Under the pieces are notes generated by a model. It did not search any database, was not told the DNA's origin, and saw nothing but the letters and a program-made list of their open reading frames with translations. The position numbers and the translations under genes were made by a program. From Zetaproteobacteria bacterium CG06_land_8_20_14_3_00_59_53 (GTDB lineage Bacteria; Pseudomonadota; Zetaproteobacteria; Mariprofundales; Mariprofundaceae), in NCBI GenBank assembly GCA_002779605.1, contig PEWE01000013.1, positions 1 to 64,000 of the forward strand: DNA of 64,000 nucleotides, in the 5' to 3' direction. Shown piece after piece: positions 24,156 through 28,336 of this stretch. The number at the start of each line of letters is the position of its first letter. Position 1 is the stretch's first letter.

Positions 24156-25064
24156 TTGCATCGCATCTACTCAGAAACCGACGATCTGGATTTTGCTGCT
24201 GCCGATGATCAGTCGGTACTCGCTTCCTCTTTGCATGCAGGTATCCGCCATACGCATGTCTGCGGCGGAAACGCACGTTGTTCAACCTGCCGGGTTCGGG
24301 TGACTGCGGGTTTGGAATTCTGCCGTCCGAGGAATGATGCAGAAGCGGCGATGAGCCTGCGACTTGGGCTTCCCGGCGACATTCGACTGGCCTGCCAGAC
24401 ATGCATCGATGGTGATATCCGCATGCGCCGTCTGGCGGTGGATGATCTGGATACTCAGATTATCCGGCATCAATTGAGCCGGACCGGTGTCGGCGGCCTT
24501 GGCCAGGAACGCGACATCGCGGTGATGTTTGCCGACCTTGCAGACTACACGGCATTTGCCGAGTCACTTCCGGCCTTCGACGTGGTGCATGTTCTGAACC
24601 GCTACTACCTGACCATGAACCGGGTGATTGAGACGAACCATGGTGTGATCAGCGATGTGGCCGGTGATGGTATGCTGGTGTTGTTCGGTGCCTGTGGTAA
24701 GGCTTCGGGGCAGGTGATGGATGCGATTGAAACGGTGCGCGCCATGCATCGGGAACTGCTCGGATTCAATGCGTATTTGCAGCAGATGTACGGGCGACAG
24801 CTCGGCATGCGCGCCGGCATTCACTTCGGTTCGGCGATTGTCGGTGATTTCAGTACCGGTCCGATGAGCAAGGTGGCCGCGATTGGCGATACCGTGAATA
24901 TGGCCAGCCGCATCGAGCAGGCCAATAAGCTTTTCGGGTCGAATCTGTTGATTTCGCAATCGGCCTATGATCAGGTGAAAACAGAGGTTGAGGTGTCTGC
25001 GTCGCATAACTGTGAGCTGAAGGGTAAAGCTGGCATCTACAGTTTATACGAGGTCGGTATTTAG
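24156..25064 (+). CDS. Class III nucleotidyl cyclase fused to an N-terminal 2Fe-2S ferredoxin domain
   Basis: Predicted redox-sensing adenylate/guanylate cyclase, 302 residues, no membrane segment. The N-terminal 100 residues are ferredoxin-like, with C-x5-C-x2-C (CGGNARCSTC, about residue 35-44) and a fourth Cys in LACQTC, the ligands of a [2Fe-2S] cluster. The rest is a class III catalytic domain: FADLADYTAFAE (metal Asp), SDVAGDGMLVLFG, and IGDTVNMASRIE (transition-state Asn/Arg). TTG at 24156 is the likely start. Just downstream (100 bp) is a CRP-type operator, so cAMP is a plausible product, but GTP cyclase cannot be excluded by eye. Confidence 0.85.
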   Translation: MHRIYSETDDLDFAAADDQSVLASSLHAGIRHTHVCGGNARCSTCRVRVTAGLEFCRPRNDAEAAMSLRLGLPGDIRLACQTCIDGDIRMRRLAVDDLDTQIIRHQLSRTGVGGLGQERDIAVMFADLADYTAFAESLPAFDVVHVLNRYYLTMNRVIETNHGVISDVAGDGMLVLFGACGKASGQVMDAIETVRAMHRELLGFNAYLQQMYGRQLGMRAGIHFGSAIVGDFSTGPMSKVAAIGDTVNMASRIEQANKLFGSNLLISQSAYDQVKTEVEVSASHNCELKGKAGIYSLYEVGI

Positions 25065-25164: not shown

Positions 25165-25234
25165 TGTGACGGGCGTCACGAATCAAAAAAATATAACAGG
25201 TATACATTCATTTCATCCTGGCGGACACAGGTGC
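25165..25234 (+). promoter_or_regulatory. CRP/FNR-type operator and class II-like promoter, copy 1
   Basis: TGTGACGGGCGTCACG at 25165-25180 is a near-perfect TGTGA-N6-TCAC(G) palindrome centred at 25172.5. A TACATT hexamer at 25203-25208 lies at the spacing expected for a class II CRP promoter (start near 25214, operator near -41.5). The 70-bp segment aligns without gaps with 27621-27690. It precedes the frameshifted secreted-protein gene. Confidence 0.65.
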
Positions 25235-25275
25235 ATTGTCAGCATACACCCGATAGCGTCAGCAGAGGTGTCAGG

Positions 25276-25817
25276 ATGAATACTTCAAGAAGAACGATCC
25301 AGATGAAAAGCCATTTCCTTCCAGTCACGATTGCAGGCATCACTTGCTTGTTCTGCATCGTTGCGATGCCGCTGGATGGAATCCATGCCGGGGAGATTTA
25401 TGTCTCAGGCTGTGCAACTCTTGTTTGTGGAGACCGCGATCAGGTGTTGAACTCGCTGATAACGCATGATGAAGAGGGCAAGGAGCCCACTCAGGTGACG
25501 CTTTGCCATGTCGAGAGCAACAAGAAAAACGGGACGATGCACACCATCAGAGTGGATCAGTCGTTCGAAGATGCGCATATGAAACACGGCGATACGCTTG
25601 GCGAATGTGTTGATACCGTCATGCAGGCCTTTGTGGCATCACTTCCTACCTGCGAGCCATTTCCGGAGGCACAACGGTGACGGGTATCTGGGCTCCGGAT
25701 ACCGCAGTCGGTCACGGGACCGGCCTGAATGTCTATTTCTTCCAGCTGCAGGATGGTACCTGCTCCGGAGTGCCGGATAGTACTCAACAAGCCTATCGGG
25801 AAATCCGCGGCCAGTGA
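25276..25817 (+). pseudogene. Secreted CHxPPGN/HGD-core protein, paralog of 27737-28336, frameshifted
   Basis: Exported small protein (signal peptide MNTSRRTIQMKSHFL....AMPLDGIHAGE). Core motif LCHVESNKKNGTMHTIRV....AHMKHGDTLGEC matches the CHVPPGN...HGDTMGAC core of its paralog. ATG 25276 follows AGAGGTG. The initial frame stops at 25680 after EPFPEAQR, but a frame shifted near 25660-25663 (TTT) continues SGGTTVTGIWAPDTAV to YREIRGQ at 25815-25817, the same tail as the paralog. So a single-base indel breaks the gene, or the sequence has an error. Function unknown. Confidence 0.7.
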
Positions 25818-25825
25818 TCGCCGCT

Positions 25826-25850
25826 CCGGGGCCTGCTGTGAGGGCCCCGG
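25826..25850. terminator. Hairpin between secreted-protein remnant and DUF47 gene
   Basis: CCGGGGCC / GGCCCCGG arms at 25826-25833 and 25843-25850, between convergent genes. No T run follows, so termination is only suggested. Confidence 0.4.
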
Positions 25851-25852
25851 GC

Positions 25853-26548
25853 CTACTCGTATTTCACACTGATATCCCTGAGTGCCTCGCCGGCATGATC
25901 GAGGCGGTCGGCGGCGTTGGACAGGTGCCGGTACACTTCGCGGCGCTTGATGCGGCTGATGACAAACTGCAGGCATTCCCGCCCCGAGGGATCGCTGGAC
26001 GATTCGCTGAGCAGCCGGTATTCCTCCCCGCCGAACATTTCGGCCAGCGCATCGCGATAAAGTGCCTCGATATGTCTTTCCTGATGATGCGTGGTCATCG
26101 AGGATGGTACCTGATCGGCCATCCCGTCCTGCAGCAGCTTCAGTCCCTGACGCAGCACGCCGGCGCCGATACTCAACTGTTCGGCCATCTTCTGCATCCA
26201 GTGATCCGGTTCCACCTGCAACACCTCGACCTCGCGCACGGTGTTCTTCAGGTAGTCGAGGATGTGATCGATGTTCATGGCCAGCGTATAGATATCTTCG
26301 CGGTCGATCGGCGTGATGAAGTTTTTGTGCAGCAGGGCCAGATTGCGCTGGCGCAGCTGATGCCCGGCCCGGACATGTTCCTTGACCGGCGCGGCCAGTG
26401 CCGGATCGTTTTCTTCCAGATATTCCTGCAGCGCTTTTGATGCAGCCTCAAGGTTTTCAGCCTGTTCTCCGAGCAGGGCATGAAAATCGGTCATCGGCGG
26501 GACGATCATCTCCCATGCTTTCAGCCACCACGGTTTTCTTTGCTTCAT
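25853..26548 (-). CDS. DUF47/PhoU-like protein, Pit-associated
   Basis: Helical protein of 231 residues in the DUF47 (TIGR00153) family, usually partnered with Pit phosphate transporters as a regulator. Predicted all-helical, with blocks such as NIDHILDYLKN and SNAADRLDHAGEALRD. Start chosen at ATG 26548 because it overlaps the pit stop as TGATG, giving translational coupling; a GTG nine bases upstream is an alternative. No membrane segment. Its metal-binding or regulatory role is known only for the family. Confidence 0.9.
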   Translation of the reverse strand: MKQRKPWWLKAWEMIVPPMTDFHALLGEQAENLEAASKALQEYLEENDPALAAPVKEHVRAGHQLRQRNLALLHKNFITPIDREDIYTLAMNIDHILDYLKNTVREVEVLQVEPDHWMQKMAEQLSIGAGVLRQGLKLLQDGMADQVPSSMTTHHQERHIEALYRDALAEMFGGEEYRLLSESSSDPSGRECLQFVISRIKRREVYRHLSNAADRLDHAGEALRDISVKYE

Positions 26549-27573
26549 CACAACCACCTCGCCAGAACAGTATGGTACAGCATGGCCAGCAGCGCTGCCG
26601 CCGGCAGTGTGATCAGCCAGGTGAAGGCGATCTCGGCGGCCTTGCTCCAGCGTACGGCGCGCGGCTTATCCGCTGCCCCCACACCCATGATGGCCGAGGA
26701 GACCACATGCGTGGTCGAGACCGGACCGCCGAACATGGCGGCGAAGAAGATCACCGAGGAGGCCGCCAGTTGACTGTTGAAGGCATGGATCGGGCGCATC
26801 CTGTATATTCCGAAACCGACGGTGCGCACGATGCGCCAGCCGCCGGAGGCCGTGCCCAGCGTGATGCTGGCAGCACACAGCAGAATCACCCAGAAGGGCA
26901 CAGAGAAACTTTCGATCGAGCCGCCGAGCAGCAGCACCAGCGTGATGATGCCCATGGTTTTCTGGGCATCGTTGGCACCGTGCGAAAAAGCCAGTGCAGC
27001 AGCCCCGATCCATTGCAGGCGGCGCAATGTCCGGTTGGCAGCCGGTGAGGCGCGTCGCAAAGCCAGCCGTGCCAGAAGATGCAGGGACCAGCCGATTGCA
27101 AGACCCAGCAGCGGCGAGAACAACAGCGCGGCGGCGATCAGCATGATGCCGTGTACCCCGCCATGCGAGACAAGCTGTGCCCATCCCCAATGCACATGAT
27201 CGGCGCCTGCGGAGAGAATGACGCTGCCGGCCAGTCCGCCGACCAGCGCATGCGAGGAGGAGGAGGGAAGCCCGCGCCACCAGGTCAGGAAATTCAGTGT
27301 CACGGCACCCGCAGCGCCGCAGAGAATGATCAGCACGGCATCTCTCGCCGGCAGATCGCCGAGTGCTACGAATCCTCCCAGTGTATCGGCGACGGCAGTT
27401 CCACCCAGAATCGGGCCGAGGAAGGTGAATACGGAAACCACGATGATGGCCTGTGTCGGTGTCATGGCATGAGAGGCGATAACGCATGCAACCATATTGG
27501 CGGTGTCATGGAAGCCGTTGGTGTAATCGAAGACCACCAGCAGCACGATGCAGATCAGGGCGATGCTCAACAT
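26548..27573 (-). CDS. pit: Low-affinity inorganic phosphate transporter, Pit family
   Basis: Inner-membrane cation-coupled phosphate permease. The two Pit signature repeats FDYTNGFHDTAN (about residue 14-25) and FSHGANDAQKTMG (about 200-212) are intact, with about 10 predicted TM helices. ATG 27573 (MLSIALICIVLLVVF) is favoured; an upstream start adds six residues. The gene precedes and overlaps the DUF47 partner. A CRP-type operator for the next, divergent gene lies 48 bases from this start and could influence both. Confidence 0.93.
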   Translation of the reverse strand: MLSIALICIVLLVVFDYTNGFHDTANMVACVIASHAMTPTQAIIVVSVFTFLGPILGGTAVADTLGGFVALGDLPARDAVLIILCGAAGAVTLNFLTWWRGLPSSSSHALVGGLAGSVILSAGADHVHWGWAQLVSHGGVHGIMLIAAALLFSPLLGLAIGWSLHLLARLALRRASPAANRTLRRLQWIGAAALAFSHGANDAQKTMGIITLVLLLGGSIESFSVPFWVILLCAASITLGTASGGWRIVRTVGFGIYRMRPIHAFNSQLAASSVIFFAAMFGGPVSTTHVVSSAIMGVGAADKPRAVRWSKAAEIAFTWLITLPAAALLAMLYHTVLARWL

Positions 27574-27620
27574 AGTCCCACTGTAGATCAAAACTCAGGC
27601 GACCATACACCGGATATCAG

Positions 27621-27690
27621 TGTGAATGGCGTCACATCTAAAAAAATCCGTTCCGGACTACCTTGGCATCTACCCGACGGATACAGGTGC
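27621..27690 (+). promoter_or_regulatory. CRP/FNR-type operator and class II-like promoter, copy 2
   Basis: TGTGAATGGCGTCACA at 27621-27636 is an exact TGTGA-N6-TCACA palindrome. TACCTT lies at 27659-27664, the same offset (38 bp) as TACATT in copy 1, and ATACAGGTGC at 27681-27690 matches ACACAGGTGC there. It drives the intact paralog at 27737. Confidence 0.7.
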
Positions 27691-27712
27691 TCCCGCAAGG
27701 TGCGGGAGCACC
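27686..27712 (+). promoter_or_regulatory. Strong stem-loop in the 5' leader of the secreted-protein gene
   Basis: GGTGCTCCCGCA-AGG-TGCGGGAGCACC: a perfect 12-bp stem with a three-base loop, ending 24 bases before the ATG and 16 bases before GGAGG. No U run follows, so it is more likely an mRNA stability or translation-control element than a terminator. Copy 1 has only a weak hairpin at the same place (GGTG...CACC at 25230-25250). Confidence 0.6.
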
Positions 27713-27736
27713 CAAGGGCGCCGGGTGGAGGTTGAT

Positions 27737-28336
27737 ATGAACGTGAAAGCAATACGTATGCTGAATCGCGGTATTTCCCTGACGATAATCGCGGGAGCCG
27801 CGTGGTTGACCGGATCGCTGGCTATGCCGATGGATTCGCACGCTGGCGCCTGCAGCAAGAGCAGCGCAGGCATGAGTGGCACGGTAAATGGCAAAAACGC
27901 CTCGTCGCAGACTTCCGCAACGGGGGCATTTGTGTGCATCAGCCGAAGCGAGGCGCTGAGTACCCTCGGCCTGAATGCCGATGAGGAAGCGGGAAACGGA
28001 ATATCGAGGGCCACCATCTGCCATGTCCCGCCGGGTAATGCGGAGGCTCAGCATACCATCACGGTGGGCCAGCCATCGGTGTATGCGCATCTGGCACATG
28101 GGGACACGATGGGTGCATGCGCTGGCTGGGTGAGCAGTTTGTATATTGCATCGCTGCCCTCCTGTGCAGCCATCGATGCATCCGGCACTTCACTGGTCAG
28201 CGGTGTGTGGTTGCCGGATACCGCGGCCGCCGATGGTGCCGCGATGAACAGCTACTTTGCCGGAGTAAAGGGCGGTACGCTGGCGGGCCATCCGGACAGC
28301 GCATCGTATTCCTATCGTGAAATCTACGGTCAGTAA
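27737..28336 (+). CDS. Secreted protein with CHxPPGN...HGDxxGxC core and GVWxPD...YREIYGQ tail
   Basis: Exported protein of 199 residues, function unknown. The signal peptide (ISLTIIAGAAWLTGSLAMPMDSHAG, cleavage near residue 38) resembles that of copy 1. Core: VCISRSEAL, ATICHVPPGNAEAQHTITV and AHLAHGDTMGAC (about residues 92-128), a Cys/His-rich module found in many bacterial exported proteins. The C-terminus IDASG..LVSGVWLPD...YREIYGQ recurs in copy 1 and at 53396-53725. GGAGG lies six bases before ATG 27737. A 16-bp-stem terminator closes the gene. Confidence 0.75.
   Translation: MNVKAIRMLNRGISLTIIAGAAWLTGSLAMPMDSHAGACSKSSAGMSGTVNGKNASSQTSATGAFVCISRSEALSTLGLNADEEAGNGISRATICHVPPGNAEAQHTITVGQPSVYAHLAHGDTMGACAGWVSSLYIASLPSCAAIDASGTSLVSGVWLPDTAAADGAAMNSYFAGVKGGTLAGHPDSASYSYREIYGQ

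Follow-up and report, generated by a model that had tools for sequence, protein, structure and literature searches.

Elements A and B, two 70-bp stretches at 25165-25234 and 27621-27690 of the 64-kb window (the whole stretch of 64,000 nucleotides analysed here, located on contig 17 of a zetaproteobacterial genome of 2.37 Mb), are probably class II CRP-dependent promoters of a lineage-wide regulon of exported proteins that bear a common C-terminal tail. We put the probability of this reading at roughly 0.8; it draws on computed sites, a fixed -10 spacing, a second gene set in which the sites again go with the tail family, CRP-like proteins and cyclases. The regulon is taken to be lineage-wide and not a local pair because the same promoter type precedes most tail-protein genes across Zetaproteobacteria. 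In this reading TGTGA-N6-TCACA, centred near -41.5, would be bound by a CRP-like protein that probably carries cAMP and that touches RNA polymerase at a weak -10; the genes of exported proteins ending S-x-R-[ES]-[IV]-x-G-[QEN] would thereby be switched on. The exported proteins of iron-oxidizing Zetaproteobacteria and their control are poorly known, and open-licence literature linking Zetaproteobacteria and adenylate cyclase is sparse. The analysis yields a predicted regulon and a two-part signature, a class II CRP promoter and a C-terminal tail, with which members can be found class-wide.

Both elements and the genes that they precede are on the + strand. Element A begins with the CRP-like palindrome TGTGACGGGCGTCACG (25165-25180), which has 9 of 10 scored bases and stands 111 bp upstream of the gene A start codon (ATG); the palindrome of element B, TGTGAATGGCGTCACA (27621-27636), has 10 of 10 and stands 116 bp upstream of the ATG that opens gene B. 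Gene B (27737-28336) encodes a 199-aa exported protein, its signal peptide recognised by inspection, with a CHVPPGN...AHLAHGD module and the C-terminal tail SYREIYGQ. It matched no Pfam or NCBIfam family, and a structure prediction from two sequences gave a mean pLDDT of 48.5. Gene A (25276-25817) is an exported CHxxxxN/HGD paralog that is frameshifted; its open frame covers 25276-25680, and its homologous C-terminal part, ending AYREIRGQ, is in another frame from about 25662. The sequence-only reading had described two secreted paralogs, which holds for exported gene B and its paralog A, but gene A is not intact because its frame stops at 25680. The frameshift (25662-25817, with the REIRGQ tail readable in the other frame) reflects either recent decay or an assembly error, and promoter A may therefore serve a decaying gene. 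Gene A matched no NCBIfam family and, in Pfam, only PilA4, weakly and below threshold (E 0.059).

Two further features of this neighbourhood were observed. The 5' leader predicted for gene B contains a stable hairpin with a 12-bp stem (27686-27712, + strand), and the leader as a whole (27670-27740) folds at -39.7 kcal/mol (z -5.4); a stable leader hairpin is not conserved in gene A (folding z -1.4). Between genes A and B, a DUF47 protein and a PHO4-family phosphate transporter are encoded on the opposite strand. Site B (27621-27636) has gene B on one side and, on the other, the divergent transporter gene (27591), whose possible starts are 30-48 bp away; it could affect both genes.

The palindrome of a class II CRP promoter, TGTGA-N6-TCACA, is present at 10/10 in B and 9/10 in A, and it is enriched across the family of genes encoding the CHxPPGN module. 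On both strands of the genome, TGTGAN6TCAC had 26 matches compared to 2 for a reversed control pattern, and the perfect TGTGAN6TCACA had five sites compared to one for the control; 2 of these five precede CHxPPGN-family genes. By profile search, 20 of the 78 Zetaproteobacteria genomes contain family genes. When the region from -170 to -35 of the start codon was searched for the palindrome (10 scored bases), 26 of 54 CHxPPGN-family genes had a site of at least 9/10 compared to 0.31 expected, and 35 of 54 had a site of at least 8/10 compared to 4.2 expected, with the expected counts taken from composition-preserving shuffles, which ignore shared ancestry. Starts were picked by a simple ribosome-site rule, so the site-to-start distances are possibly off for some genes. 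All 7 family genes of two genus members (three here and four in the nearest relative, G070) had sites of at least 9/10, at -105 to -117. About half of the CHxPPGN-family genes are without a site of at least 9/10, and some of these are downstream genes in tandem clusters. As a control, 47 CHxPPGN genes from other phyla and classes outside Zetaproteobacteria were searched; one reached 9/10, and none had the C-terminal tail.

The third family gene of this genome, on contig 1, encodes 262 aa ending SYREIRGE and is preceded by TGTGAGGGCAGTCACA at a distance of 117 bp from its start. Directly downstream of it (G000:C1:281683-282700, L040) is a gene for a 345-aa Ser/Thr/Pro-rich repeat protein ending MNYREVHGQ, which has no CRP-like site of its own.

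The tail, S-x-R-[ES]-[IV]-x-G-[QEN] as the last residues, often follows a C-x-C-x-[DN]-G-x-x-G box and is common to proteins with wholly different middles, which consist of CHxPPGN modules or of NDN, KDS or HEDEA repeats. The proteins that bear it are exported and often of low complexity. As with sorting tails of the PEP-CTERM kind, the signature is shared by otherwise unrelated secreted proteins. Across 398 evenly sampled Pseudomonadota genomes, a 35-position tail profile had matches in 41 of 78 Zetaproteobacteria genomes and in 0 of 320 other Pseudomonadota genomes. Two closed genomes, G046 and G048, carry tail genes. The tail is unnamed in Pfam and NCBIfam; seven family proteins scanned against the CTERM/NCBIfam families gave no match over cut-off, and one weak PEP-CTERM match among them fell within a repeat region. 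These proteins make up a predicted exported-protein family with a common tail that is class-wide and previously unnamed. Genus g6 (G021-G036) is almost without tail proteins, having one weak match in G027, and perfect CRP-type palindromes do occur in g6 genomes.

A second set of genes was collected by the tail, with matches to the tail DNA pattern filtered for real stop codons, and is mostly without the CHxPPGN module. The palindrome was present at 9/10 or better in 18 of these 25 genes compared to 0.12 expected, and some of the non-matching genes are truncated or have probably misread starts. Since the tail, and not the palindrome, served to collect these genes, they provide a fair second test, although their genomes are related to those of the first set.

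Four CRP/FNR-family proteins are encoded in the genome. Two of them, L036 and L035, retain the R-E-T-x-x-R recognition helix (SRETISR and QRETVTR), so the CRP-like protein that the sequence-only reading presupposed is present. Aligned with E. coli CRP over 181-188 positions, each shows 29% identity, and L036 has the PRSA motif of cyclic-nucleotide pockets. L036 scored 97.5 bits and L035 58.3 bits against the CRP equivalog NF008732 of NCBIfam, below its curated cut-off of 266 bits. L036 and L035 may work like CRP yet lie outside that equivalog, and cAMP as the ligand is uncertain because of the scores below cut-off. Eight class III cyclase domains are encoded in the genome. Directly upstream of promoter A (24156-25064, + strand) is a 2Fe-2S ferredoxin domain fused to a class III adenylate/guanylate cyclase, possibly a redox-sensing cyclase. 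This Fer2 cyclase was considered as a dedicated source of cAMP and found unsupported; with eight cyclase domains in the genome it need not supply the signal, and the relative has another gene at that place.

The sites could instead be bound by a different CRP/FNR-family regulator, one that responds to redox, oxygen, NO or a ligand other than cAMP, or by a repressor. We regard this as unlikely but deserving of real weight, since all four CRP/FNR-family proteins fall below the CRP equivalog cut-off and the best match of L035 by sequence is DNR. However, the motif TGTGA-N6-TCACA is of the CRP type and not TTGAT-N4-ATCAA, the PRSA pocket motif is kept in L036, the eight class III cyclase domains would supply cyclic nucleotide, and a position of -41.5 is typical of activation. 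For the preferred reading, that of class II CRP-dependent promoters, we infer cAMP as the ligand, the identity of the CRP-like protein that binds, and activation rather than repression.

Beyond the palindrome itself, an alignment of promoters anchored on it showed most clearly an A at 39 and a T at 43, which correspond to -11 and -7 of a -10 element spanning 38-43. The A(-11)/T(-7) pair was found at one fixed offset in 24 of 38 non-redundant promoters, compared to 8 at the next offset (0/2000 shuffles); the counts were 17 of 28 in the CHxPPGN-family set and 11 of 17 in the tail-collected second set. The -10 hexamers themselves are poor. This fixed offset places the site near -41.5 relative to the -10 and gives computational support to the class II CRP geometry proposed earlier, with A and B one base off. 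The -10-like hexamer of element A, TACATT (25203-25208, + strand), is shifted by one base from its class-wide position relative to the site, as is that of element B, TACCTT (27659-27664, + strand). The best hexamer in A and B is at 39-44, as originally noted, but the class-wide register starts at 38.

TTGAC was observed 49-53 bp from the palindrome start in six promoters (e.g. L229, L288, L289 and L295), where it could possibly mark a second downstream promoter. That such a promoter, with a TTGAC-type -35 at 49-55, sets the transcript start, and that CRP thus acts from about -75 (class I) and not as in class II, is improbable. TTGAC is at position 49, 50 or 53 in only 6 of the 38 promoters, without -10 enrichment at matching offsets in the tested range, and offset 38 is the sole place with a -10 signal.

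The two elements of the window are more alike than the class-wide signals require. They are identical at 45 of 70 positions without a gap, exactly the number first counted by eye, and the next best places in the window reach 33-38. The best other match was 33/70 to element A and 38/70 to element B, and on the reverse strand the best match to element A was 34. Identity in the flanks is at chance level (17/70 upstream and 19/56 downstream). When the 16-bp palindrome is left out, 32 of 54 positions are identical, a match that a single given pair of unrelated 54-mers would reach with a probability of approximately 3e-7 (p=0.26). Only A and B have the extended match; what the nearest relative's promoters and the third one of this genome share with them is limited to the palindrome, the -10 region and some short pieces, and outside the palindrome they match at only 14-19 of 54 positions. 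The check that had been proposed showed the site before other family members; recurrence of the whole 70-bp composite is unsupported. The composite as a conserved unit was ruled out, with recurrence limited to the palindrome and the -10. Most of the A/B match reflects duplication ancestry. The nearest relative has two adjacent paralogs in the same neighbourhood with one palindrome each, and because they are in tandem there we take the A/B paralogs to have arisen by duplication; this agrees with the regulated, duplicated unit that had been suggested. Ancestry as the sole cause, with upstream DNA simply retained after gene duplication and a spacing that has no function, is about as improbable as a downstream promoter. 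It accounts for the tandem paralogs and for the extra A/B identity that the third and the relative's promoters do not share, but not for a palindrome and -10 offset found again in 38 non-redundant promoters whose genes have diverged, and also before tail genes with unrelated bodies.

Further CRP-like sites of the genome precede curlin-repeat genes and an OEP gene beside Big_13 Ig-like domains, and another is near an HlyD/CusB-type protein. At L044 (G000:C3:183100-186100), two curlin-repeat genes on one strand flank the site GTGATCTGGATCACA, which is upstream of the gene encoding 439 aa; at L046 (G000:C10:89500-92500), TGTGACTTATATCACT separates an OEP outer-membrane efflux gene from a Big_13 Ig-like protein. 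A second OEP-like gene (L045) also has an upstream site. The signal peptides, low-complexity repeats, fixed tail and company of these other sites hint that the tail-family products may be surface or matrix components. A bolder proposal, which we hold to be doubtful, is that the tail is a new lineage-specific export or anchoring signal, that its cargo is the protein scaffold of zetaproteobacterial iron-oxide stalks or dreads, and that all of it would be switched by cAMP-CRP, possibly through redox-sensing iron-sulphur cyclases. The tail genes would, however, be more than a set of genes for stalks. Stalk-forming (11) and stalk-less (5) isolates are covered in PMC8250860, and dreads are described in PMC5513912.

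Like the sfz candidate stalk cluster (PMC8250860), the tail family consists of candidate extracellular-structure genes in Zetaproteobacteria; in contrast, sfz comprises genes for polysaccharide synthesis and export, and that paper makes no mention of CRP. Gene B and many of its relatives share their module with the widespread CHxPPGN...AHLAHGD proteins, whereas the non-zetaproteobacterial carriers examined are without the C-terminal tail and, with one exception, without a CRP-type site. PEP-CTERM and GlyGly-CTERM are C-terminal sorting tails, and the present tail is likewise a short C-terminal signature on different protein bodies. However, its end has no transmembrane segment or basic patch by inspection, the zetaproteobacterial proteins terminate straight at R-E-I-x-G-Q, and no NCBIfam match was over cut-off. 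In enterobacteria, CRP controls curli and the biofilm matrix; CRP-type sites are similarly found here before exported, possibly matrix-forming proteins, including curlin-repeat genes, although the main targets are an unnamed, lineage-specific tail family for which a matrix role is inferred. The galP1 type of E. coli represents class II CRP-dependent promoters. Compared to these, the promoters described here have zetaproteobacterial targets, a candidate regulator that is just 29% identical, and a description from sequence; they have in common with them TGTGA-N6-TCACA centred near -41.5 and a weak -10.
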